A stretch of DNA of 64,000 nt from Bacteroidia bacterium (GTDB lineage: Bacteria; Bacteroidota; Bacteroidia; UKL13-3): contig JALONK010000002.1 of NCBI GenBank assembly GCA_025454975.1, forward strand, positions 62,001-126,000, written 5' to 3'. How positions within the stretch are numbered: the first letter of the stretch is position 1; the number at the start of each line of letters is the position of its first letter. The translations under genes and the position numbers were made by a program. The notes below the pieces were generated by a model, which worked only from the letters and a program-made list of their open reading frames with translations, was not told the DNA's origin and ran no database searches. This document shows, in pieces, positions 19,326-62,547 of this stretch.

Positions 19326-22300
19326 TTACCTTAATAAGGTAACATTACCTTCTCGAATAAATTTATTACCGGAAACAAAACTTCCTTCAACAATCCATAC
19401 ATAAACATCACTTGCACATGCGCGCCCTCCTGTTTCGCCATTCCAAGCTTCGTAAGGATTATTAGTTTTGAAAACTAATTTACCCCAACGGTCATAAACC
19501 CTAAATTCATACCCTTCTAAATTTATACCGGTGTAAACCGGAATAAAAACATCATTTACATTGTTGCCATCAGGAGTAAAGGCAGTTGGTACAAATATAG
19601 TTGCCGCATCATCAACCGTAATAGCATTAATCACTGTTGATGAATCAGTACAGTTAAATTCGTTAAATACAACCAACTTCAGCGTATATCTACCTGCCCC
19701 GCTAAAACGGTAGGATGAATTTACATTGGTATCAGTAAAGATTATGTTGTTTAATGAATCAAATAAGTACCACCTGTTTACCACAGCATCAAATGAAGTA
19801 TTGGTAAATGTACTTATGGCTTCGGGTAAAAATATAGTTGATGGATTGATAGTAAAACGCGCCCTCGGCAAATCATGCACAATAATACTATCTACCTTTT
19901 CTATTGTTGAATCACCACCGGGACCGTAAGCAATTAATTCAACCGTAAATTTATCATCACGTGTGTAAGTCTTGGTAGGATTTTCTTCAGTTGATCTTGT
20001 TCCATCGCCGAAGTCCCAACGATAAGCAGTTGCATATTGACTCTCATTTATAAATTGAACAGTAAGTGGTCGGCAACCTTCTTTAGGAAACATGCTGAAC
20101 GCAGGAATTGGCTTACGAGGCATTACCCTTATACTTCTAAAGGCGGTATCCTTGCAACCTTTATCGGTTTCAATAATTAACCTCACCAAATAATTTCCCG
20201 AATCAGTATATTGATGTTGTGGATGTTGCAAAACAGAACTCGAGCCCGGAAATCCATCGCCAAAGTTCCATTGATGCGACAAAGTGCCGGAGCTAAGTAA
20301 TGAAATATCTGTAAATCGAATATTCGCATCAGGCATTTGAGCGATAGGCGGATTGGCTATAAATTGCGCAGTAGGTACTTCATGAATATTAATATAGGCT
20401 GATTTTACAGCAGTATCTGAACATCCGGTTGCTGCATAAGCTATCAACCTTACTTCGTATGCACCTGTGTTTACATATTTATGCGTTGGATTTATTTGAT
20501 TGGTACCTCCTCCATCGCCAAAAAACCAGAAATAACTTGAGGCATTGGTTGAACGATTGAAAAATGTGACATCTAAATTTGCACAACTTTGGGTAACATT
20601 AGCATCAAACTCAGCGCTTACCAAAGGGTTAACAACAATGGTGGAACTACTTGTGTCGCGACATCCATTAATGGTTGTGGCTATTAATCGGGGTTGATAT
20701 AAAGTATCGCCATTTGATTTGCTTCTGTAATAATGCACCGGAACAAACAATGTTGATTGTTGTCCATCACCGAAACGCCATTGATAGGTAGAAGCTCCTT
20801 GTGAAGTATTCAAAAACCGATATTCTGCAGTATCACACCTAAGTGTTTTTGTTGCACTGAACTGTGAAACAGGTAAAGGATAAACTACAATATTATTTTT
20901 AGCGGTATCCGTACAACCTGCGTTTGAGTATGCTCTTAGCGTTACCGGATAAATGCGGTTTACATTTAACAACGGGTTGTCAAATAACTTGGTCGGATTA
21001 GCAGCGGTATCAGTTGAACCATCACCAAAATCCCAATCATACCTTACTCCTCTTAAGCCAGTATTATTAAAGGTAACGGTGTATGGCGAACAACCGGGAG
21101 GTATGTGCACAAATCTTGCATCCGGATTAGGATTTAAGGTTACCGGACGTATGAATGTATCTCGGCATCCATAAGGAGATGTTGTAACCAGCCTAACTTG
21201 AAAAACGGTATCACGAGTTGGTGAGCCTACAAAGAACCTAAGCGGATTTACTGCTGTTGATGTTGTGCCGTTTCCAAAGTTCCACTGGTGTGTAGTGCCA
21301 CCTAATGATGAATTAAAAAAAGTAATGTTTCCATTGCCACAGATACTGTCATGTGATGGAAGAAAATCAGCCACTGGATTATATCTGGCAACAATGGTAC
21401 TTCTCGCGGTATCACCCCAACAACCAAATACCGATTGGGTAATCATACTAACAACATAAGCAGAATCAAAAACATCATAAGATAAAAAGCGGTGGGATGG
21501 ATTGAAGCGCATTGATGTATCGCCATCATTAAAATCCCAGTAATACCTGAAGCCAAGTTGTGATGTATTATTAAATTGAACCTGTAAAGGCCCACAGCCT
21601 GCATTCACAGAAGGCACAAATGAAGTTACGGGATTAGGACGAACAGTAATAAAACGAGAAGTTGTATCAACACAACCGTGTTCGCTTGTGGCTGTTAGTA
21701 GAACCCGATAAGAAGTATCTGCTAAAATTTTTGCTAAAAAAACAGCCTGTGGTTCAGTATTAGTTGAAGTTAATCCGTTGCCAAAGTTCCAATTAAATGT
21801 CATATCAGCAACAGTCCCGGTATCGTTAGGGTAAGATTGATTTAAAAACTGCACTTGTAATGGTCCACAACCCGCATTGGTACTTGGAGTGAAAAATGCA
21901 ACCGGTTTAGGATATACCCGCACTTGCTGAAGTGTTGTATCGCTACAACCATGTTCACTAAAAGCAATTAGTCGAATTTGATATATGGAATCGTTAACAT
22001 TAGAAGCAATAAAAGTTGAAGTGGGCTGAGCAATTGTTGAAGTAAGTCCATTACCAAAATTCCATTGAAAATTCATGATTCCAATTGAGCCTGTATCGTT
22101 TGGAATTGATGTGTTGTTAAATGTGGTTTGGTGCGGGCCACAACCCGCAGGATTAACTGCTGTAAACCTTGACAATGGCTGAGGGAAAACTCTTATAGAT
22201 TGATTCGATGTATCGCTGCAACCAAAACGTGATGTTGCAATTAACCTTATGGTATAGTTGGTATCTTGTGAGTTTGAAGGCTGTAAAGTTACTGATGGTT

Positions 22301-25300
22301 GAGCAAGTGAAGAAGTTTGGTTATTGCCGAAATTCCAATTAAAACTCATGTTGCTTATATTTCCTCCAAAACGATGCACAGAAGTATTTGAAAAATTAAC
22401 GGCTAATGGACCACAACCTGCATTAATTGATGGAGAGAAAACACTGATTGGTTTGGGAAATACGCGCACTGTTTTGGTAATGCTATCGCTGCAACCCGGA
22501 CCATTTTCTGCAATTAATTTTATGGTAAAAACAGAGTCGTTATTAATTGATGCAGGATAAACAGCAGTTGCATTTACATTTGTTGATTGAGTACCATTAC
22601 CCAAATTCCATCGGTAAGAAATTCCATTTGGAGTGGTGTTTAAAAACTGAACAGCTAAAGGCCCACATCCACTATCTCTACTGATTGTAAAATTCGGTAC
22701 GGGATTAGACAAGGTTCTTACTGTTTGGACTGCTGTATCAGGCCGGCAATTAAACTGATTAAATGCAACCAAAGAAACCAAAAACTGTTGATTACTTAAA
22801 CTAACAGTGGTATCGCTTCGGTTGGTTAAGGTAGAAGTAGGTTCACCATTAACAAGCCATCTGTAGGTGTTCGCTTTTACCGATTGATTGGTAAAGGTAA
22901 AAAGTTTAGGTGCACAACCAAAGGTGTCATTCATAACAAATCTTGCTTCGGGTAATGGCCTGGAAATTACCGTACGAGATACTGAGTCACGGCATCCCTG
23001 CAATGTTATGCCTAACAGTTGCACAGTAAAAGTGCCCGAATCACTGTAAATGTATGGGAATGGACCGGTCGCATTTAAAATTATATCACCCGAGCCATCA
23101 CCAAAATTATAGCGATAAATGAAGGCACCAACACTGGTATTATTAAAAGTAAACGTATCACCTGCACATAATGCACTTTGCGAGTTGAGTTGGATAAGCG
23201 GAGTGGTGTTTACTATAGTGTTAATGCTATCGGTATTGGTACAACCATTATTAGTTGTAACGGTTAGCTTAGTTCGAAATGTACCGGCAGAGGGGAATAT
23301 AAAACTAGGATTTCTAGTCGTGCTATCAATAATGCCATCGTTATTAAAGTCCCAAGCCCATTGAGTGATGTTCCCGGACGCAACAACTGAGCTGTCTGTA
23401 AATCGGGTTTGTTGACCCGTACAGGCTAAGCTTCTGAATAACCTTGCATCAGGGTTAGGATGTACAACATAATTTTGGGTTATGGCAGTTGAACATCCAA
23501 CATTATTTTCAGCATAAAAACTTACCGAATATGTACCTGTTGATGGAAAACGATAAACAGTATCTTCAACGCGGGCGGTATCGCCAGTTCCGAAAGTCCA
23601 ACGAAATGCAGTTAAGGTTGCCGGAGCCGCTGTGTTTGCTGTACCATTAAATGAAACTATGCCTCCATTACATATTGATGTTGGGGTAGGTGAAATAGAA
23701 ATTGTTGGTGAAGATTTAACAGTAACGTTAACCATTGCTGTATCTCGACAGGTTTTATCAGTTGTAATTTCCAGAATAGCCGTAAATGTTCCACTGGCAG
23801 GATAAGTATAGTTAACTGATGCTGCGCCATTAGGAATACTATCGCCATTGCCAAATAACCAACGGTAACGAGTAATAACATCGCCTGTGGCCAATGTTGA
23901 ATTGCTATTAAAATTAGTGGCACTACCTCTACAAACTGTACCGGCTGTAAAAGATGCAACAGGTAAAGTACTTACAGCAATATTTACGATTTGCGAATCA
24001 ACACCACAAGTATCCCGCACTACTAATTTAATTTGGTAATTACCGGTAAGGTTAAAAGTTACAGGTGTTGGGTTTCTAAGTGTTGAAGTTTGACCGTTAC
24101 CAAAATCCCAAAAGAAGGTAGCATTGTTACTAATATTTACGGTATTATTAGTTGGTGAAATGGTGTGAGGTACACAACCGGAGGAAACATTACCAATATT
24201 CACAGAAGGTTTAGCAAACACCCGCACGGTATCTCGAACAATTACATTATTGGCACAGGTATTACTCACTTGTAAGCTCACAACATAGGTACCGGGATTA
24301 TTGAATGTTCTGTTTTCAATAAGATTAGTTCCAGTTCCGGGTGTTGTTCCGGGAAAAGTCCACACCCTTGAATTTCCAATACCTAATGAGGTGTCATTAA
24401 CGGTAATGGTTAAAGGTGCACAGCCAAATTTTGGTGTTAGAGTAAACCCCGGAACCGGAGGTCGGTTAATCAGTACTGTTGTAAAAGTGGTATCGCTTCC
24501 GCAACCATTACTATCAATAAGCATAATGGTATATGGGCCTAAAGAAGGAAATGTATGTGTTTGCGGGCCTTTACTTGTAATCCATCCTGTATTCGTACCA
24601 TCGCCAAAGTCCCAATAATAATATCGCGTTCCTGTGATACAATTATCTTCCGACGAATTGCCAAAAGTATAGGTTAACGAAGGTGCACATAAATTTGTTG
24701 GTGGATTAATTCGTGCCACATCCTTATCAAAAATTAATACGGGAGAAATGGTAAATACAGATGCATTATTAGCACCTGTATTACAATTGGTGTTAATGGC
24801 AGATAAAGAAACAGTATAAACACAATTTCCTGTTGGGCTAGGCAAATAAGTATGGGTAATGGGCTGATTGGCTTGAGTCCAATCGCGAGTAACAATGGTT
24901 CCATCACCAAAATTCCAAGTAAAAATTGTACCGGGCAAAGCAAACTGCGTTGTATCTTGAAAGGTAATGGTATGAGGTGCGCATCCTGCAAGTTGGCCGG
25001 CAGGAAGTGGTTTAATGGAAGTACTCACCGGCCTCATATTAATTACAGTACCTCTTATGGTATCAGTACAGCCGCCATTAACGGTAACTATGCGAATCGG
25101 GAATAATCCAAGAGTAGTGTAAGTGTGGTTAACCGTGCTGCCAATGGGTAATGATGCCCCGCTATTGTTTGGGGTATTATCACCCCAAATAATTGTATAG
25201 TTGTTTAACACCGCATTTGAGCTAACCTGAATACTATAATTGGATGATTGTAGTGGATTAATTATACAGTTACTCCAACGAGGGTTGAATGTAAAAGCAC

Positions 25301-25670
25301 CAAACCCATCAAAAATTAAAGCTGCACCCGAAGTAATGGTAACTGTTTGTTGAATAGAATCGCGACAGCCGCCAGGCGTGCGAGACACCATTCGAACTGT
25401 ATAGGTACCCGGACCCGGAAAGGCATAATTGAAAGGTGTAGTTCCAAAGGTACTATCAACACGAACGCCATCAATACGCCATAAATAAGTTGAAGTAGCA
25501 GCTAATGAACCTGTTGAAGTATTGGCAAAGGAAAAGTATGATGGTACATTACAACCATTTTGAGCTGGCACATTAAAACTCAGGCTTAGATTGGCACATC
25601 TATTTTGAGCACTAACCTGAAAAATAATTAAGGGCAAGCACAGGGTAAGGTATAATCGCAATAGTTTCAT
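19326..25670 (-). CDS. Giant PKD-repeat surface protein, T9SS type B cargo
   Basis: The protein has 2114 residues from the ATG at 25670. An upstream in-frame ATG (25721) would add 17 residues ahead of a clean signal peptide (MKLLRLYLTLCLPLIIFQVSAQ) and is less likely. About 23 tandem PKD-like domains can be counted, each near 80-95 residues, with WxFGDG/WNFGNG turns. Most carry one cysteine at the start (GCGP, GCAP) and one near the end (GCSDT, GCRDT). The last about 90 residues (PTAFTPDGNNVNDVF ... YDRWGKLVF ... GNVTLLR) form the gliding-motility-associated C-terminal domain, a T9SS type B sorting signal. Proteins of this design are long surface fibres, often adhesins. No enzymatic domain is visible. 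Confidence 0.93.
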   Translation of the reverse strand: MKLLRLYLTLCLPLIIFQVSAQNRCANLSLSFNVPAQNGCNVPSYFSFANTSTGSLAATSTYLWRIDGVRVDSTFGTTPFNYAFPGPGTYTVRMVSRTPGGCRDSIQQTVTITSGAALIFDGFGAFTFNPRWSNCIINPLQSSNYSIQVSSNAVLNNYTIIWGDNTPNNSGASLPIGSTVNHTYTTLGLFPIRIVTVNGGCTDTIRGTVINMRPVSTSIKPLPAGQLAGCAPHTITFQDTTQFALPGTIFTWNFGDGTIVTRDWTQANQPITHTYLPSPTGNCVYTVSLSAINTNCNTGANNASVFTISPVLIFDKDVARINPPTNLCAPSLTYTFGNSSEDNCITGTRYYYWDFGDGTNTGWITSKGPQTHTFPSLGPYTIMLIDSNGCGSDTTFTTVLINRPPVPGFTLTPKFGCAPLTITVNDTSLGIGNSRVWTFPGTTPGTGTNLIENRTFNNPGTYVVSLQVSNTCANNVIVRDTVRVFAKPSVNIGNVSSGCVPHTISPTNNTVNISNNATFFWDFGNGQTSTLRNPTPVTFNLTGNYQIKLVVRDTCGVDSQIVNIAVSTLPVASFTAGTVCRGSATNFNSNSTLATGDVITRYRWLFGNGDSIPNGAASVNYTYPASGTFTAILEITTDKTCRDTAMVNVTVKSSPTISISPTPTSICNGGIVSFNGTANTAAPATLTAFRWTFGTGDTARVEDTVYRFPSTGTYSVSFYAENNVGCSTAITQNYVVHPNPDARLFRSLACTGQQTRFTDSSVVASGNITQWAWDFNNDGIIDSTTRNPSFIFPSAGTFRTKLTVTTNNGCTNTDSINTIVNTTPLIQLNSQSALCAGDTFTFNNTSVGAFIYRYNFGDGSGDIILNATGPFPYIYSDSGTFTVQLLGITLQGCRDSVSRTVISRPLPEARFVMNDTFGCAPKLFTFTNQSVKANTYRWLVNGEPTSTLTNRSDTTVSLSNQQFLVSLVAFNQFNCRPDTAVQTVRTLSNPVPNFTISRDSGCGPLAVQFLNTTPNGISYRWNLGNGTQSTNVNATAVYPASINNDSVFTIKLIAENGPGCSDSITKTVRVFPKPISVFSPSINAGCGPLAVNFSNTSVHRFGGNISNMSFNWNFGNNQTSSLAQPSVTLQPSNSQDTNYTIRLIATSRFGCSDTSNQSIRVFPQPLSRFTAVNPAGCGPHQTTFNNTSIPNDTGSIGIMNFQWNFGNGLTSTIAQPTSTFIASNVNDSIYQIRLIAFSEHGCSDTTLQQVRVYPKPVAFFTPSTNAGCGPLQVQFLNQSYPNDTGTVADMTFNWNFGNGLTSTNTEPQAVFLAKILADTSYRVLLTATSEHGCVDTTSRFITVRPNPVTSFVPSVNAGCGPLQVQFNNTSQLGFRYYWDFNDGDTSMRFNPSHRFLSYDVFDSAYVVSMITQSVFGCWGDTARSTIVARYNPVADFLPSHDSICGNGNITFFNSSLGGTTHQWNFGNGTTSTAVNPLRFFVGSPTRDTVFQVRLVTTSPYGCRDTFIRPVTLNPNPDARFVHIPPGCSPYTVTFNNTGLRGVRYDWDFGDGSTDTAANPTKLFDNPLLNVNRIYPVTLRAYSNAGCTDTAKNNIVVYPLPVSQFSATKTLRCDTAEYRFLNTSQGASTYQWRFGDGQQSTLFVPVHYYRSKSNGDTLYQPRLIATTINGCRDTSSSTIVVNPLVSAEFDANVTQSCANLDVTFFNRSTNASSYFWFFGDGGGTNQINPTHKYVNTGAYEVRLIAYAATGCSDTAVKSAYINIHEVPTAQFIANPPIAQMPDANIRFTDISLLSSGTLSHQWNFGDGFPGSSSVLQHPQHQYTDSGNYLVRLIIETDKGCKDTAFRSIRVMPRKPIPAFSMFPKEGCRPLTVQFINESQYATAYRWDFGDGTRSTEENPTKTYTRDDKFTVELIAYGPGGDSTIEKVDSIIVHDLPRARFTINPSTIFLPEAISTFTNTSFDAVVNRWYLFDSLNNIIFTDTNVNSSYRFSGAGRYTLKLVVFNEFNCTDSSTVINAITVDDAATIFVPTAFTPDGNNVNDVFIPVYTGINLEGYEFRVYDRWGKLVFKTNNPYEAWNGETGGRACASDVYVWIVEGSFVSGNKFIREGNVTLLR

Positions 25671-25736
25671 GAACTTAATAGCCCCAAACAAAAATAGGCA
25701 TTTATTACAAAAATCGCCCATTCATACCAAAATAGT

Positions 25737-36367: not shown

Positions 36368-38275
36368 TCACGCCAAACGTGAAAATGGCTTTTTAGACTG
36401 AGGAAAATCAACACCCATTGCAAAAGCAGTGATTAATCCGAACATACAGGCAAATATTACATCCTTTATTTGTAAATTCATGTTGGTTTGCGGTAATGAT
36501 GAACTGTTCATCATGGTAAAACCTATACCAATCAAAACAAACACTATGGCAAACCATTGATAAATACGTAAGCCATTCCAATACTTAGTTTGACTTTCAC
36601 CTCGGTAGTTTTCTTCAATAAAACGACCAATACCTGATAAAATAAAATAGGTGCCGGTAATTAATGAAGAAGAACATCCCTCATAATACATTCTTGAAGT
36701 AAACGCAAGAATTAATATTTGCATCATCAATGAATAAAACGGAGTAGCATGAATTATTACACCGTGCATTCCGCTAATTTTAACTACTCTTGATTGTGGG
36801 TGTGTAACCCTTATTAATAATCCATTATTATTGTGCGCTTCACAACCATGGCAACAGCCCTGACTAACACATCGCAAACGACCGATGGCAACAATGGCCG
36901 GAGCCGCAATACTTATAGCAGCCATTAAATCAAAAACAGATATCTGCTTATATGAGGCCATTATAACTAGTGCAACTGCGCCACCTAAAATTGCACCAAA
37001 ATAACCAAACGGCCGTTGTAAGGCTGTACTTCCTTCAATCCAACGTCCCCAAATAGCGCCACCGGCAAGAGTTGCGCAGCCTGTAATGATTATCAAACCA
37101 TGATCATGTAATATTGAAAACAAAATCAGATATCCTGTTGAGGCTGCTAAAAATGGAAACACAGCATGATGCATAATTCTGAATGAACCAACCTGAGTTG
37201 CATTCCAACTATTGGCTAATTTCTCTACCAGTATTGACAACCTTTTCCATAAATAATCGTAATTCCTAGCCACCAAATAAAGCAAATAGCCGACAGCTAA
37301 ATCAAACACTGCATGCATGGCAGTAAACCAACAAGCAATGGTAGCCAACCAAGCATAAACCAATAAAAAATTGCGTGCGCCTTTATACTTCAAACCATAA
37401 ATATAATAGGCTGTAAACACCCAAAATACATGAAATGAAGGTAAACAAGCCCAAACAGCATCAACTTGTTTTTCAAACCGTATCCAATCAGCAAAAAATC
37501 CATCAGGTGTTGTTACATCTGCTACTGCAACAAAAGGAAATGCCCACAAAATTAAACCCCCTATTATAGTTCCGATCCACGACATAAAGACAAATTTCCT
37601 AAGTAACATGCGGTTGGAAACCAATACAGGAACCATAGCAACAAAAGGATAAACTAAAGAATACAAAATAATAAAAGCAGGAAAAACTTTAACGGATTTA
37701 GGGGTTAGGTAGGTATTAATTGGTTGATTTGAAGGCCCAAAATAAATTGCACCTTCATATACTATTAACCATGGTACAAAAGCCATTAACGCAATAAGAA
37801 TTCGATTAGACACTGTTACTTTATCACTATCAAATAATGCTTTATAAAAGTTGGTGTGATAGTTAGTGGGCTGATAAATCTTTTGAATGTGAGCATTTTC
37901 AAATCCATAAACAAGTGCTAAACAACAGAGCGCAATAATTGGTGAAACATACCAAAAACCGAAAGGAATGGATTGCCAAATAAAAAACCCAAATACCAAT
38001 AACACGAATCCAACATAAATAGGATGTTTAAACCAAGCATATAGGCCATTATTAACTAAGAATTTGGGAGGATAAGCATTCATGGGCAAACCTTTGCCTT
38101 GAATGAATAGTTGAAGCATAGCAATGCTTATAAATAGCATACCTATTACCATAAAACAAATGCCTATACTTTCATCAAAAGGTACATCACGATTAATTTG
38201 AACTGAACTTCCCCAATACCAAATAAGTAATGGAATCCCAATGGTGAATATAAGTGCATACAGGAATTTGCCCAT
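36368..38275 (-). CDS. Multidomain membrane protein: methyltransferase-like, PAP2-like and Lgt-like modules fused
   Basis: The protein has 635 residues and many membrane segments. Residues 1-170 resemble isoprenylcysteine/phospholipid methyltransferases: NNGLYAWFKHPIYVGF (His84, Pro85) and an acidic YGFENAHI (Glu126). Residues about 195-345 resemble PAP2/inositol-phosphoceramide-synthase enzymes: LPSFHVFW (His282) and TAMHAVFDLAVG (His321, Asp325), the paired histidine and aspartate of the family. Residues about 365-635 resemble prolipoprotein diacylglyceryl transferase: GRLRCVSQGCCHG (465-477), ATPFYSLM and GIGRFIEENYRGE (Arg551). The usual PxQLYE glutamate appears as Ser. All three relatives act on lipids at the membrane, so a lipid-modifying enzyme is likely; reaction and substrate are unknown. 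It starts 3 bases after the upstream gene. Confidence 0.8.
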   Translation of the reverse strand: MGKFLYALIFTIGIPLLIWYWGSSVQINRDVPFDESIGICFMVIGMLFISIAMLQLFIQGKGLPMNAYPPKFLVNNGLYAWFKHPIYVGFVLLVFGFFIWQSIPFGFWYVSPIIALCCLALVYGFENAHIQKIYQPTNYHTNFYKALFDSDKVTVSNRILIALMAFVPWLIVYEGAIYFGPSNQPINTYLTPKSVKVFPAFIILYSLVYPFVAMVPVLVSNRMLLRKFVFMSWIGTIIGGLILWAFPFVAVADVTTPDGFFADWIRFEKQVDAVWACLPSFHVFWVFTAYYIYGLKYKGARNFLLVYAWLATIACWFTAMHAVFDLAVGYLLYLVARNYDYLWKRLSILVEKLANSWNATQVGSFRIMHHAVFPFLAASTGYLILFSILHDHGLIIITGCATLAGGAIWGRWIEGSTALQRPFGYFGAILGGAVALVIMASYKQISVFDLMAAISIAAPAIVAIGRLRCVSQGCCHGCEAHNNNGLLIRVTHPQSRVVKISGMHGVIIHATPFYSLMMQILILAFTSRMYYEGCSSSLITGTYFILSGIGRFIEENYRGESQTKYWNGLRIYQWFAIVFVLIGIGFTMMNSSSLPQTNMNLQIKDVIFACMFGLITAFAMGVDFPQSKKPFSRLA

Positions 38276-38278
38276 AAG

Positions 38279-39052
38279 TTATGGCCATAGCGCCCTTTCA
38301 AATATAGTTTTAAATTGCATTTCCCATAAATTCACTTTAGCGTGAGCAATTCCAACAAATTTTTCTTCTGTAATACGAAAGGCCTTAATTGGGAATAAAT
38401 ATTTCAGTATGGATAACGTTTTAAATATGGTTTTTCCTACCTCACCCCTGCGTAACGGAGTGGCCTTTTGTAACGAACATGAGGTTCCATCTGCCAAGAA
38501 TAGGTCATTCAATTCAATACTGGAAACTTGTTGTTCTTTCCCATTTAACCATGCTTTATGTATTGGGTGTTTTCCTTTCCAAACAATCCAAACCAAATGA
38601 TTATGAGAATTAATTGCCCTCCCCCAATACAATTCCTTTATGGGTAGTTTCCATGGTGCTATTGTAGTTTCAAGCACTTCGGCATAACCTAAACCTTTAT
38701 AAGTTTTTCCTTCAATTATTACTTCTGCATCGCATAACGGAGCAAAACAATCCCAACTTACCAAATTTGCACCATCCCTATATAATTCTTGTGGATCAAT
38801 AGGTTTATCCAAAGGGTTCCAACTTCCTTGCAATTCATCAAAGCTTATCTTGAAGTTTGATTCTTTTTTTAAGGATAGAGGCTTGTTAAACCTATTAACC
38901 TCTGTATAAACACCCAAGTTACTTTTTAAACAATACCCGGAGTAAGTAAATTGAATTATACCCCATTTAATTTTAGCCACATAAACAATAAGATGTTCAT
39001 TGTTGTCTGTTTGTAAATCGGCATAATACTTTTGAGTATAGAAACTGGGCAT
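38279..39052 (-). CDS. Protein of unknown function, possibly lipocalin-like
   Basis: The protein has 257 residues with no signal peptide. It is rich in tryptophan and aromatic residues and predicted all-beta: IIQFTYSGYCLK, GLGYAEVLETTIAPWKLP, ELYWGRAINSHNHLVWIVWKG. The GYAE and LxWGRA spacing is reminiscent of the lipocalin-like hydratases and AttH group, which handle carotenoids or other hydrophobic molecules, but I cannot establish homology by eye. It is separated from the multidomain membrane protein by 3 bases and from the upstream unknown gene by 35 bases, so all three are probably one operon. A binding or carrier role for the lipid handled by the downstream enzyme is inference. Confidence 0.75.
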   Translation of the reverse strand: MPSFYTQKYYADLQTDNNEHLIVYVAKIKWGIIQFTYSGYCLKSNLGVYTEVNRFNKPLSLKKESNFKISFDELQGSWNPLDKPIDPQELYRDGANLVSWDCFAPLCDAEVIIEGKTYKGLGYAEVLETTIAPWKLPIKELYWGRAINSHNHLVWIVWKGKHPIHKAWLNGKEQQVSSIELNDLFLADGTSCSLQKATPLRRGEVGKTIFKTLSILKYLFPIKAFRITEEKFVGIAHAKVNLWEMQFKTIFERALWP

Positions 39053-39087
39053 AAGAATGATTGAAAAAGTGCTGTATAATCTTAGGG

Positions 39088-39654
39088 TTAACCAAGGCGT
39101 TTCTGCATGGTTTGAGTAACCGAGTTAAACAATTGTTGGGGCGACAATTTACGCCAATTTAGTGCATTTAATTCGCCACCAAAAACTAAATAAAAATCAA
39201 TATTTGCCTGGGTAAACTCATCAAGTACATGTTGTTGAAAATTAATTGCGGCAATCCAACCATCTTCCAATTCTTGAAACCACTCTTCATAATAACAATC
39301 ATCACTACAATGAAAATTAAGCACATTTTCACCTATCAATATAAACCGATTGACACCCTCAGCCATTAACACTTCCGCTATTTCGCGTTTAAACATCATC
39401 ACATCATTATGTATGGCATCATTCCATTCCCCGATAAGTTCAATAATTGCGTATCCTTCACGATAATCAGCATAAAGAATTTTTATATACAATGTAGGTG
39501 AGCCAAATTCGTCCCATTGAGGGTGTATAAGGTAATTATATATGCGATTGCTATACTCAAACTCACTGTACTCACGATTATAAAAAGGTGATAATCGGTC
39601 ATCTTCTGCCCGGTACAAATCACGCCACCTGTAAAACGGTTCTATATCCTGCAT
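39088..39654 (-). CDS. Conserved Bacteroidota protein of unknown function
   Basis: The protein has 188 residues from the ATG at 39654 (MQDIEPFYRWRDLYRAEDD). A frame extending to 39744 would run through the predicted promoter and was rejected. It is acidic, soluble and aromatic-rich: SPFYNREYSEFEYSNRIYN, HPQWDEFGSPTLYIKILYAD, IELIGEWNDAIHNDVM, FILIGENVLNFHCSDDCYYEEW. The high conservation I recall for these blocks across Bacteroidota suggests a real, widespread family, but I know of no assigned function. It is the first gene of the likely operon with the unknown and multidomain membrane genes. The promoter -7 box ends 5 bases upstream, so the mRNA may have almost no leader. Confidence 0.82.
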   Translation of the reverse strand: MQDIEPFYRWRDLYRAEDDRLSPFYNREYSEFEYSNRIYNYLIHPQWDEFGSPTLYIKILYADYREGYAIIELIGEWNDAIHNDVMMFKREIAEVLMAEGVNRFILIGENVLNFHCSDDCYYEEWFQELEDGWIAAINFQQHVLDEFTQANIDFYLVFGGELNALNWRKLSPQQLFNSVTQTMQKRLG

Positions 39655-39658
39655 CCCA

Positions 39659-39689
39659 CAAATGTAATTACTGATTGAATAAGGACAAA
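39659..39689 (-). promoter_or_regulatory. Predicted promoter of the 39654-36368 operon
   Basis: On the minus strand TTTG (39689-39686), a 19-base spacer and TACATTTG (39666-39659) match the Bacteroidota consensus exactly. Transcription would start at or within a few bases of the ATG at 39654, so a leaderless mRNA is possible. Confidence 0.65.
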
Positions 39690-39722
39690 TAAAAAACAGG
39701 GAGTAAAATGCCCTTTTAACAC

Positions 39723-39752
39723 TTTGATTACTCAAGTAAAACACTATTTTTG
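39723..39752 (+). promoter_or_regulatory. Predicted promoter of metK
   Basis: TTTG (39723-39726), an 18-base spacer and TATTTTTG (39745-39752) match the consensus. The start of transcription would be near 39758, leaving a leader of about 39 bases before the ATG at 39797. No SAM riboswitch is visible in so short a leader. Confidence 0.65.
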
Positions 39753-39796
39753 CCAGCTATAAATTAACTTTACACTTAAAAACATAAATATAAAGC

Positions 39797-41050
39797 ATGT
39801 CGTATTTATTTACATCAGAGTCTGTGAGTGAGGGACACCCGGACAAAGTAGCCGATCAGATTTCGGATGCGTTAATTGATCATTTTTTGGCGTTTGATCC
39901 AGATTCAAAAGTAGCTTGTGAAACCTTAGTAACTACAGGTCAGGTTGTACTTGCCGGTGAGGTAAAATCAAAGGCTTATTTAGACGTTCAAAGCATTGCC
40001 AGAGATGTAATCAAGAAAATAGGTTACACCAAAAGTGAGTATATGTTTGAAGGTAACTCATGCGGTATTTTAAGTGCAATTCATGAACAATCTGCTGATA
40101 TCAACCAAGGAGTTGACCGCAAGAAAAAACAAGACCAAGGCGCAGGCGACCAAGGTATGATGTTTGGATATGCCACCAATGAAACAGAAAACTTAATGCC
40201 TTTAGCTTTAGATTTAGCTCATGGTATTTTATTGGAGTTAGCCGCTTTAAGAAGAGAAAACAAAGGGATTAAATATTTACGTCCGGATGCCAAAAGTCAG
40301 GTTACCTTAGAATACGACGACAATAACAAACCGGTACGAATTGATTCGATTGTAGTTTCTACTCAGCACGATGATTTTGACACTGAAGCTAAAATGTTAG
40401 CTAAAATTAAAAAAGATATTGTTGAGATATTAATTCCTCGTGTTAAAGCGAAGTACAAAAAATACGCTCATTTGTTTAACGACAAAATTAAATACCATAT
40501 TAATCCTACAGGTAAGTTTGTAATTGGTGGACCGCACGGTGATACCGGATTAACCGGAAGAAAAATTATTGTTGATACTTACGGAGGAAAAGGAGCACAT
40601 GGTGGTGGTGCATTTTCAGGTAAAGACCCTTCGAAGGTGGATCGTTCGGCAGCCTATGCAACACGTCATATTGCTAAAAATTTAGTTGCAGCCGGTGTAT
40701 GTGAAGAGGTGTTGGTTCAGGTTTCTTATGCTATTGGTGTGAAAGACCCAATGGGAATTTATGTAAACACCAACGGAACTGCAAAAGTGAAATTAACAGA
40801 TGGACAAATTGCGAAAATAGTTGAAAAGATTTTTGACATGACTCCTTACGGAATTGAAACACGTTTAAAGCTACGTAATCCAATTTATAGTGAAACTGCA
40901 GCTTATGGACACATGGGTAGAAAGCCTGAAACAGTAACTAAAACTTTTATCGCACCTGATGGTAAAAAAATCAGCAAAAAAGTTGAATTATTTACATGGG
41001 AGAAATTAGACTACGTTGACAAAGTGAAAAAAGCTTTTAAGATAAAATGA
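39797..41050 (+). CDS. metK: S-adenosylmethionine synthetase
   Basis: This cytosolic enzyme makes S-adenosylmethionine from methionine and ATP. It has 417 residues, slightly longer than the 384 of E. coli, in keeping with Bacteroidota orthologues. The ATP-binding motif is [15 protein letters not shown], the signature hexapeptide region is [13 protein letters not shown], and [21 protein letters not shown] and [19 protein letters not shown] are the other conserved blocks. It has its own promoter and terminator and is convergent with oxyR. It supplies the cofactor for the methyltransferases elsewhere in the window. Confidence 0.98.
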
Positions 41051-60448: not shown

Positions 60449-60598
60449 TCTAAAAAACATTTTTACGGTAATTTGTTATTCTTTTAACTTCACTGTTATT
60501 ATTAATTTTTTCTAAACATCACTCATTTACATCTTAGTTATTAAGGGTTTAAAAGAATGATAAAATTTTCTTAATAATGATTGTACATTCGTAACAAG

Positions 60599-61456
60599 AT
60601 GCAAAAATTAAAGCAAACCCTTATTTTATTCAGGTTTCACTTTTCAATATTGCTGATGCCGGTGTTTTTATTTGCCATCAGCCAAACCACAAAACCAATC
60701 TGGTGGCAAACGATACTAGGATTCTTCATTTTACATCTGTTGGTATATCCTTCAAGTAATGCATTCAACAGTTATTATGATCGAGATAAAGGAAGTATTG
60801 GCGGATTAAAGAACCCGCCGGCCATTACTTCATGGGTTTATCCCTTAACCATCATATTTGATAGTCTTGCAATAGTTCTGAGTGCACTTATTAGCATTCA
60901 ATTTGCCCTAATGGTTATTGGTTATATTATTGCCTCAAGAGCCTACAGTGCTAAAAATATCCGGCTGAAAAAAAATCCTTTGTTATCATATTTGGTCGTG
61001 TTTATTTTCCAAGGTGGATACACCTATATTATGTCGCAAATGGCCGCAGGTGATCTTCATTTGGTGAGTGGTTTTTACGGATTGCAAGCTGCTTCATTTT
61101 TAATTGGTGGTGTTTATCCCTTAACTCAAATCTATCAACACCGGGAAGATGCCGAGAGAGGTGATATAACCATTAGTATGAAACTTGGTTTAAAGGGAAC
61201 ATTTAGGTTAAGCACTGTTATGTTTATTCTGGCAGCCATATTTTTATATATGCATTTCGCTTCAAATTATAAACTCTTTCATTTTTACCTCTATTTATTG
61301 TTTTCAGCTCCTTCTGCTGCTTATTTACTTTGGTGGATGAAAAACACTAATCGTTCACCTCAATATGCCGACTTCACTTTTACCATGATTATGTCAACAT
61401 TATCTGCGGTAAGTATGAATATATATTTTACTATTCTTTTGTTTTTGAATCATTAA
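60599..61456 (+). CDS. UbiA-family prenyltransferase
   Basis: The protein has 285 residues from the ATG at 60599 (MQKLKQTLILFRFHFSILLM); a TTG at 60581 is possible but less likely. About eight membrane helices are present. The first prenyl-diphosphate-binding motif is NAFNSYYDRDKG (Asp61, Asp63), and the second acidic motif is YQHREDAERGD (about 179-190). UbiA enzymes transfer an isoprenoid chain to an aromatic acceptor in the membrane. It is followed after 2 bases by a type III polyketide synthase, which typically makes such aromatic rings, so the two probably work in one pathway. A TACATTCG sequence at 60584-60591 is a near match to the -7 box and would make a nearly leaderless mRNA. Confidence 0.88.
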   Translation: MQKLKQTLILFRFHFSILLMPVFLFAISQTTKPIWWQTILGFFILHLLVYPSSNAFNSYYDRDKGSIGGLKNPPAITSWVYPLTIIFDSLAIVLSALISIQFALMVIGYIIASRAYSAKNIRLKKNPLLSYLVVFIFQGGYTYIMSQMAAGDLHLVSGFYGLQAASFLIGGVYPLTQIYQHREDAERGDITISMKLGLKGTFRLSTVMFILAAIFLYMHFASNYKLFHFYLYLLFSAPSAAYLLWWMKNTNRSPQYADFTFTMIMSTLSAVSMNIYFTILLFLNH

Positions 61457-61458
61457 AC

Positions 61459-62547
61459 ATGCCTACAATTACAGGTATATCAACTTCAACTCCAATATTT
61501 GGATTAGAGCAAAAAAAAGTAGCTGCTTTTATGCAAGGCTTCTTTAAACACAACAGTGAGCTGCAAAGAAGAATTCCAATTTTATACGATCGTACAGGTA
61601 TTGATAAACGTTACTCTTGCATTCCGGATTTTTTAAAAGAACACGTGGGTGCCGAATTGTTTAGTGATGATATTGCCATGCATCCTAATGTTGATAAAAG
61701 GATGGAGCTTTACACAAAACATAGCTTACCCTTAGCCACTGAAAGCATAATTAAAGTATTAAACAAAACTAATACACACAAGCACGACCTTACCCATTTA
61801 ATTACTATTTCATGCACGGGAATGAGCGCTCCGGGCTTAGACTTACAAATAATTGAAGCGCTTCAGCTTCCTTTGCATATTCAGCGAACTTCTATAAATT
61901 TTATGGGATGTTATGCCGGAGTTCATGGGTTAAAACAAGCTTATCAAATTGCAAAAGCAGATCCTGACGCTAAAATTATGTTGGTGAGTGTGGAACTATG
62001 TTCTTTGCACTTCCAACCATTTGATGATTACGATACCATAACTGCAAATGCAATTTTTGCTGATGGTGCAGCCGCCACTATTATTGTAGGCGATAATATA
62101 AAACATTCATCAGGTAATGCTTTATCTATACATAATTTTTATAGCGAAGTTTATAATAAAGGCAAACAAGATATGGCATGGCATATCTCATCAAAAGGTT
62201 TTATTATGACTTTGTCGTCATACATTCCAATGCTTATAGGTGAATCTATTGCACCACTACTAAATCGGGCTTTTCAGCATGCCGGAATAACTCAAAAAGA
62301 CATTCAAACTTGGGCATTCCATCCGGGTGGTAAAAAAATTATCACCACCATTCAACAATCTTTAAACCTGGATGAAAATGACGTGCGATTTTCTAACGAG
62401 GTACTTAAAGATTACGGTAATATGTCGTCAGCTACCATTTTCTTTGTATTAGAAAAAATAATGCAACAATCTCAACCCGGTTACATATTTGGCGCTGCAT
62501 TTGGCCCGGGGCTAACCATGGAAACCTTCACATTTAGTCAACAATAA
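61459..62547 (+). CDS. Type III polyketide synthase
   Basis: The protein has 362 residues, a typical length for bacterial chalcone-synthase-like enzymes. The catalytic triad is intact: Cys151 (FMGCYAGVHGL), His288 (WAFHPGGKKI) and Asn321 (DYGNMSSATIFFVLE), with spacings 137 and 33 close to the 139 and 33 of plant chalcone synthase. Other family motifs are LITISCTGMSAPGLD and GAAFGPGLTMETF at the end. Such enzymes condense malonyl-CoA onto a starter acyl-CoA to give pyrones or resorcinols. The chain length and starter cannot be read from sequence. It begins 2 bases after the UbiA gene stop, so the product is likely prenylated. Confidence 0.94.
   Translation: MPTITGISTSTPIFGLEQKKVAAFMQGFFKHNSELQRRIPILYDRTGIDKRYSCIPDFLKEHVGAELFSDDIAMHPNVDKRMELYTKHSLPLATESIIKVLNKTNTHKHDLTHLITISCTGMSAPGLDLQIIEALQLPLHIQRTSINFMGCYAGVHGLKQAYQIAKADPDAKIMLVSVELCSLHFQPFDDYDTITANAIFADGAAATIIVGDNIKHSSGNALSIHNFYSEVYNKGKQDMAWHISSKGFIMTLSSYIPMLIGESIAPLLNRAFQHAGITQKDIQTWAFHPGGKKIITTIQQSLNLDENDVRFSNEVLKDYGNMSSATIFFVLEKIMQQSQPGYIFGAAFGPGLTMETFTFSQQ

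Follow-up and report, generated by a model that had tools for sequence, protein, structure and literature searches.

Within a 64-kb window of contig C33 (the whole stretch of DNA analysed, from a genome of 3.44 Mb and 98% completeness, placed in Bacteroidota by its genes and its named relatives), two adjoining genes form a conserved two-gene unit that is separate from the gene in front of them. Three open reading frames (ORFs) follow each other on the minus strand: gene 1 (P0001, 39088-39654, 188 aa counted from the ATG, or 218 aa from an alternative upstream GTG start), gene 2 (P0002, 38279-39052, 257 aa) and gene 3 (P0003, 36368-38275, 635 aa), the last of which encodes a membrane protein fused from three domains. 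Genes 2 and 3 are kept together as a pair, every domain is predicted to fold like a known lipid enzyme, and we hold, with somewhat better than even confidence, that the pair constitutes a horizontally spread module that would make or remodel a lipid at the cytoplasmic membrane.

Genes 2 and 3 form a conserved unit separate from gene 1

We scanned 84,980 species genomes with the alignment of the gene 3 fusion and obtained 160 pattern matches, 132 of them relatives, the best 80 of which were kept as fusion loci; the family alignment of gene 3 has 80 rows. One strain contributes two contigs, L060 and L061. In 76 of the 80 loci the fusion is preceded, on its own strand, by a gene-2 homologue, at a distance of at most 300 bases in 65, with two genes in between in nine and at other distances in two (L130, and L107 with its broken fusion ORF); none was found in L101, L121, L128 (contig edge) and L129. 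Similarly, 8 of 395 genomes sampled from the phylum carry the full fusion, our own included, and in all seven others a gene-2 homologue directly precedes it (E 1e-35 to 7e-19). The pairwise identities of gene 2 and gene 3 correlate with an r of 0.84 over 69 loci, shared descent not being controlled in this value. At one locus, the gene-2 homologue of a Cardiobacteriaceae bin (L082:6220-6979) is split in two ORFs by a frameshift or a sequencing error.

The tree of the fusion family spans Bacteroidota, Acidobacteriota, Pseudomonadota, Planctomycetota, Ignavibacteriota, Gemmatimonadota, Zixiibacteriota and Verrucomicrobiota, with Pseudomonadota and Acidobacteriota each split by supported branches, and horizontal spread of the module is the natural reading. 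Cultured carriers of the pair include Chitinophaga, Arenibacter, Christiangramia, Labrys and Akkermansia strains, and Neisseria is also among the carriers of the module. Among 96 relatives of our genome no full-length gene 2 or gene 3 was found: the matches to gene 3 are standalone Lgt or methyltransferase pieces, and the sole match to gene 2 spans 68 residues. No donor of the window copy is visible, the best relatives of P0003 being 38% identical, and neither P0003 nor the Labrys fusion has a match in plasmid records. Measured in 600-base windows, the GC content of genes 2 and 3 (0.33-0.39) is inconspicuous beside that of the flanks (0.30-0.38) and so gives no sign of recent transfer.

Gene 1 has a different distribution. 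It is a class-wide gene: of 97 genomes searched, ours among them, 80 have a homologue; full-length homologues elsewhere are 43 to 73% identical, and a 13-row alignment has a mean column identity of 80%. It has no Pfam or NCBIfam match above chance and no relative in the PDB. The first-pass annotation had counted gene 1 as a member of the system, and one could accordingly regard all three genes as one functional operon in which gene 1 acts as a regulator or a partner, a view to which the gaps of 35 bases (39053-39087) and 3 bases (38276-38278) on a single strand, the lack of an intervening terminator and a promoter match only before gene 1 lend themselves. However, gene 1 is present without genes 2 and 3 in 79 of 96 relatives, gene 2 adjoins it in none of 29 relatives (about 1.5 kb read on each side), and no gene 1 homologue was found in any of the 80 fusion loci, all of which thus have the module without an adjoining gene 1. 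The three families therefore do not co-occur as a set, whereas genes 2 and 3 do; we consider the functional three-gene operon very unlikely and conclude that gene 1 is a bystander, an older resident that is not part of the module.

The physical layout described in the first-pass annotation proved exact. No terminator-like site lies between the three genes in a terminator scan, in which the minus-strand matches fell within gene 3 (37325-37307) and at its end (36382-36368), the total of four sites comparing with a mean of 4.3 in shuffled sequence. Promoters of Bacteroidota follow the consensus TTTG...TAnnTTTG, and the promoter claimed ahead of the three genes was recovered as an exact TTTG-N19-TAnnTTTG match at 39659-39689 (minus strand), which ends 4 bases before the ATG of gene 1. 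As the consensus has three matches in the window versus 3.81 expected, which is chance level, only the position of this match supports it as the gene 1 promoter; a sigma-70 scan was uninformative (27 sites versus 30.7 in shuffles). Of 30 gene 1 loci examined, own genome included, a start was found in 29, and 20 of these starts have a -7 box in the 45 nt ahead of them; because most of these are in genomes without genes 2 and 3, the promoter is gene 1's own. It now probably drives genes 2 and 3 by putative read-through. Two of the three consensus matches of the window lie in the divergent intergenic region between metK and gene 1 (39654-39797), one facing each gene. At the insertion site, the response-regulator gene downstream of gene 3 is matched in 10 of 21 genomes, ours among them, but in none of the eight same-genus genomes, a pattern that does not reveal the ancestral gene order.

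Predicted folds and active sites of the two proteins

The AlphaFold2 (AF2) model of gene 3 (pLDDT 92.0, pTM 0.92) comprises three domains, and the earlier description of the protein as a triple fusion of lipid enzymes is borne out by Pfam matches to PEMT and LGT, by PAP2_3 matches in relatives and by the predicted folds; a PDB sequence search returned no match for P0003, A4 or A7. Domain 1 (37844-38248, minus strand, about residues 10-144) is predicted to be an S-adenosylmethionine (SAM)-dependent methyltransferase of the ICMT/PEMT type, with a PF04191 (PEMT) match of 9.9e-7 (29.6 bits versus a cut-off of 25) and a structural similarity score (VIA Z) of 11.8 to ICMT (5vg9; 130 residues aligned, 3.1 Å). 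It has the HPxY motif and Glu126 in common with known members, but occupies the N-terminus of a fusion and carries a conserved GxGLPMNAFPP stretch.

Domain 2 (37241-37828, minus strand, about residues 150-345) is of the PAP2_3 type. Its nearest structures are sphingomyelin synthase (SMS) and inositol-phosphorylceramide (IPC) synthase relatives: VIA Z is 13.5 to 8ijq (182 residues aligned, 4.0 Å), 13.1 to 9vj4 (182, 3.5 Å) and 12.5 to Aur1 (9ivc), compared to 10.5 for the phosphatase PgpB. The PAP2_3 model of Pfam reaches 1e-15 in relatives (L059) and is silent for P0003 itself. Like these synthases (Z 12.5-13.5), the domain has a His-His-Asp triad (H282, H321 and D325), which 66 of 84 family sequences, two of them duplicates, possess; unlike the synthases, it is internal to a fusion and has lost the site in one clade of the family.

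Domain 3 (36500-37225, minus strand, about residues 351-592) is of the Lgt type, with a PF01790 (LGT) match of 6.6e-18 (65.3 bits versus a cut-off of 24.9) and a VIA Z of 18.1 to E. coli Lgt (5azb; 228 residues aligned, 3.2 Å). P0003 does not reach the NCBIfam equivalog cut-offs for Lgt, scoring 46.2 bits where 334 are required and 40.7 where 118.9 are. In E. coli Lgt, R143, R239, E243 and R246 form the network for phosphatidylglycerol (PG) binding and catalysis (PMC4728403), R143 and R239 being essential; matched by eye, these four residues align with R466, R551, E555 and R558 of gene 3, respectively. The domain differs from Lgt in being the C-terminal part of a fusion and in its RxRCxxxGCCHG signature variant, which ends in GCCHG. 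Judging from these residues, it likely carries out lipid-diacylglyceryl chemistry, for which the head group of the donor may differ. Besides the fusion, the genome has two standalone Lgt-family genes (L148:5599-6375 and L149:1723-2880). The one on C14 is a paralogue of the GCCYG type and has Cys at the position of E. coli Lgt E151; the other, on C5, is divergent (GRIGCQLSGDGDWG) and has Asp there.

For gene 2, no Pfam family scored above chance in any of 72 members, CrtC and lipocalin-like models included, NCBIfam gave nothing above chance, and a PDB sequence search with the larger gene 2 profile (A3) returned only a chance match (E 0.48). The earlier statement that the first two genes match nothing thus stands for Pfam and NCBIfam, but not for the fold, which is clear for gene 2. 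Its all-beta, lipocalin-like appearance was confirmed by an AF2 model (pLDDT 94.4) in which two lipocalin-type barrels extend over residues 1-257. Between 226 and 238 of the 257 residues align by VIA with the double-lipocalin group: Z is 22.0 to 7dmn, 20-22 to the Diels-Alderases Fsa2, CghA, Phm7 and relatives, 19.7 to AttH (2ich), 19.2 to 25-phosphosteroid lyase and 18.3 to kievitone hydratase, compared with 6.7 for the next-best fold. The protein is about 65-120 residues shorter than solved members of this group, to which CrtC also belongs, and 8-12% identical to them.

A sequence bridge points the same way. A first gene 2 profile (A2) reached a few proteins of 340-440 residues in other Bacteroidota genomes, and A3 finds four of them (1e-10 to 5e-9); two of the three scanned (L141 and L142) contain Pfam DA_N, the Diels-Alderase N-terminal domain. 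Comparison of gene 2 with five DA_N-type proteins (A5) by hhalign gave a probability of 95.8, aligned GLGYAE with GSGYHD and placed Glu125 of gene 2 (codon 38678-38680, minus strand), the candidate general acid, on D194 of A5. In these proteins the Asp has a Trp 15 and another 17 positions after it, matching the spacing of D268, W283 and W285 in CrtC, where D268 is the proposed proton donor to the terminal double bond and W283/W285 are proposed to steady the carbocation (PMC12402844). Mapped by spacing, with CrtC itself not aligned, D268 corresponds to Glu125, W283 to Leu141 and W285 to W143, which is invariant; on this mapping the acid position and one active-site Trp would be retained. Glu125 is conserved in at least 90% of the 72 gene 2 sequences, and D12, Y24, Y123, E125, R145 and E252 are all invariant or at least 90% conserved. 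We infer from the model and these residues that gene 2 encodes a soluble, cofactor-free, acid-catalysed hydratase or cyclase.

The first-pass annotation had proposed a carrier or regulator instead. By analogy to yeast Svf1, gene 2 might be a non-catalytic carrier that hands a ceramide- or diacylglycerol-like lipid to the PAP2/SMS-type domain, and the middle domain of gene 3 is indeed nearer to the SMS-related protein, IPC synthase and Aur1 than to PAP2 phosphatases. Svf1 has two lipocalin domains and is proposed to be a ceramide carrier supplying sphingolipid synthesis (PMC10583516), and the AttH paper (PMC2954199) ties the fold to PF08622. On the other hand, the conservation of the six polar positions would be unusual for a carrier, the conserved CrtC-type acid position argues for an enzyme, and gene 2 is kept where the PAP2 site has been lost. 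Moreover, Neisseria and Labrys are not known to make sphingolipids. We therefore regard a carrier as possible but rather improbable, and retain the hydratase or cyclase as the predicted function of gene 2.

A variant clade, gene neighbourhoods and the proposed lipid chemistry

The loss of the PAP2 motifs is confined largely to one supported clade (16 rows, support 100), in 11 members of which an ABC permease, mostly with an ATPase, lies beside the module. We compared 64 loci, namely those of the 80 with at least 2.5 kb upstream after dropping the duplicate L061 (L097, with 2.2 kb upstream, is excluded): the triad is intact without a permease in 52 and with one in 1, and degenerate without a permease in 3 and with one in 8 (Fisher p 3e-7). 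PAP2-less loci without a permease are L108, L110 and L129, and also L119, L122 and L127, which have short flanks. PAP2 loss and the ABC transporter are thus associated within one clade. A general rule coupling loss of PAP2 to gain of the transporter was rejected, because most degenerate members belong to one clade and because two loci that lie elsewhere in the tree, L097 and L104, combine an intact triad with an ABC transporter.

Clusters that recur beside the module are the ABC ATPase, the ABC permease and a squalene-synthase-like protein. The last, a squalene/phytoene-synthase-like gene, lies upstream of the module in 6 of 80 loci and in G134, all in the PAP2-less clade; both Asp-rich motifs are present in six of these seven, the seventh being a fragment, and the Pfam scores are below cut-off (0.017 and 3.6e-4), with no match for the G134 copy. 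In Ginsengibacter hankyongi (L129:5977-8875) such a gene directly precedes a PAP2-less fusion, and no gene-2 homologue was found nearby. In another Bacteroidota genome (G462, L150:6417-12860), a gene-2-like gene, a P450, a PEMT-LGT fusion without PAP2, an ABC ATPase, an ABC permease and a pyridoxal-phosphate (PLP) decarboxylase follow one another in one direction, a row that by its gene content is likely a biosynthetic cluster. Elsewhere, a diacylglycerol kinase and an acyltransferase lie near the module (L123), a sulfotransferase stands behind the fusion (L128), and the decarboxylase before gene 2 in L126 is lysA-like (TIGR01048 2.4e-70, below cut-off) and may be an ordinary lysine gene. The module resembles the core of a biosynthetic pathway to which genes for tailoring and export are recruited, nearer to lipid or natural-product synthesis than to protein modification.

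In the mechanism that we propose, the soluble gene 2 protein would protonate a double bond of an isoprenoid-type chain with Glu125 as the acid, leading to hydration or cyclisation by analogy to CrtC and kievitone hydratase. The ICMT/PEMT domain of gene 3 would methylate the intermediate with SAM, the PAP2 domain, which is of the synthase type (H282/H321/D325), would remove a phosphate head group or exchange it. Lastly, the Lgt-type domain, which keeps the PG-cleaving arginines, would move a diacylglyceryl or similar group. We are guessing at the order of these steps as well as at the substrate and the product. The theme of lipids or isoprenoids suggested at first fits the predicted folds and the squalene-synthase-like neighbours. 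Extending it, we tentatively suggest, with the odds somewhat against it, that the module makes a hitherto undescribed class of isoprenoid-containing, methylated membrane or secreted lipids in at least eight bacterial groups. The hydratase or cyclase would feed gene 3, a single polypeptide in charge of methylation, head-group exchange and diacylglyceryl transfer, and the variant of the PAP2-less clade would be exported by the ABC transporter.

Several observations weigh against this lipid-module interpretation. First, the proposed catalytic Asp of CrtC is a Glu in gene 2 and W283 aligns with Leu141, and the comparison of gene 2 with PF07143-type relatives by hhalign gave a probability of only 8.7, for which reason we do not call gene 2 a CrtC, from which its membrane-fusion partner also sets it apart. 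Second, scores such as those of the ICMT (Z 11.8) and PAP2 (Z up to 13.5) domains are common for helical bundles, although Pfam backs both, PAP2 in relatives only. Third, E151 of Lgt, which takes part in PG selection, aligns with Cys474 of gene 3, so the diacylglyceryl donor may not be PG. Fourth, the squalene-synthase-like genes are found only in the PAP2-less clade, so that an isoprenoid substrate for the window pair is extrapolated. Finally, P0003 forms a long branch (1.64) in the family tree, which leaves its position and origin unsure.

The change at E151 also bears on the idea that gene 3 acts on cysteines of proteins, with an Lgt-type transfer of lipid to the thiol and then an ICMT-type methylation of the carboxyl group, as a membrane counterpart of CaaX processing. 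Known members of the Lgt and ICMT folds both modify cysteine, and the cysteines of MYXO-CTERM have been proposed as targets of an Lgt-like enzyme (PMC11980579). Yet the Lgt signature is altered at this residue, the PAP2 domain and the CrtC-type partner would both be superfluous, and the genes that recur beside the module include no protease or target-protein gene. Such protein modification seems to us improbable, more so than a gene 2 carrier, and we continue to favour the lipid module.

Further genes of the window and the meaning of the module

Elsewhere in the window, an ORF that we take to be a UbiA-type prenyltransferase is followed after 2 bases by what looks to us like a type III polyketide (chalcone) synthase (60581-62547, plus strand), possibly a prenylated polyketide pair, and a 2131-residue ORF (19326-25721, minus strand) is presumably a surface protein of repeated PKD domains with a gliding-type C-terminal tail.

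Every part of the module belongs to a known fold; of the combination of folds, the two-gene unit and the spread of the unit we found no description in open-licence PMC full text. A pair conserved in at least eight bacterial groups, cultured strains included, points to a lipid chemistry for which no assignment was found. As four lipid-enzyme folds are contained in two polypeptides, lipidomics on a single knock-out could bring a new lipid to light, and could show that the Lgt and CrtC folds are used beyond lipoproteins and carotenoids.

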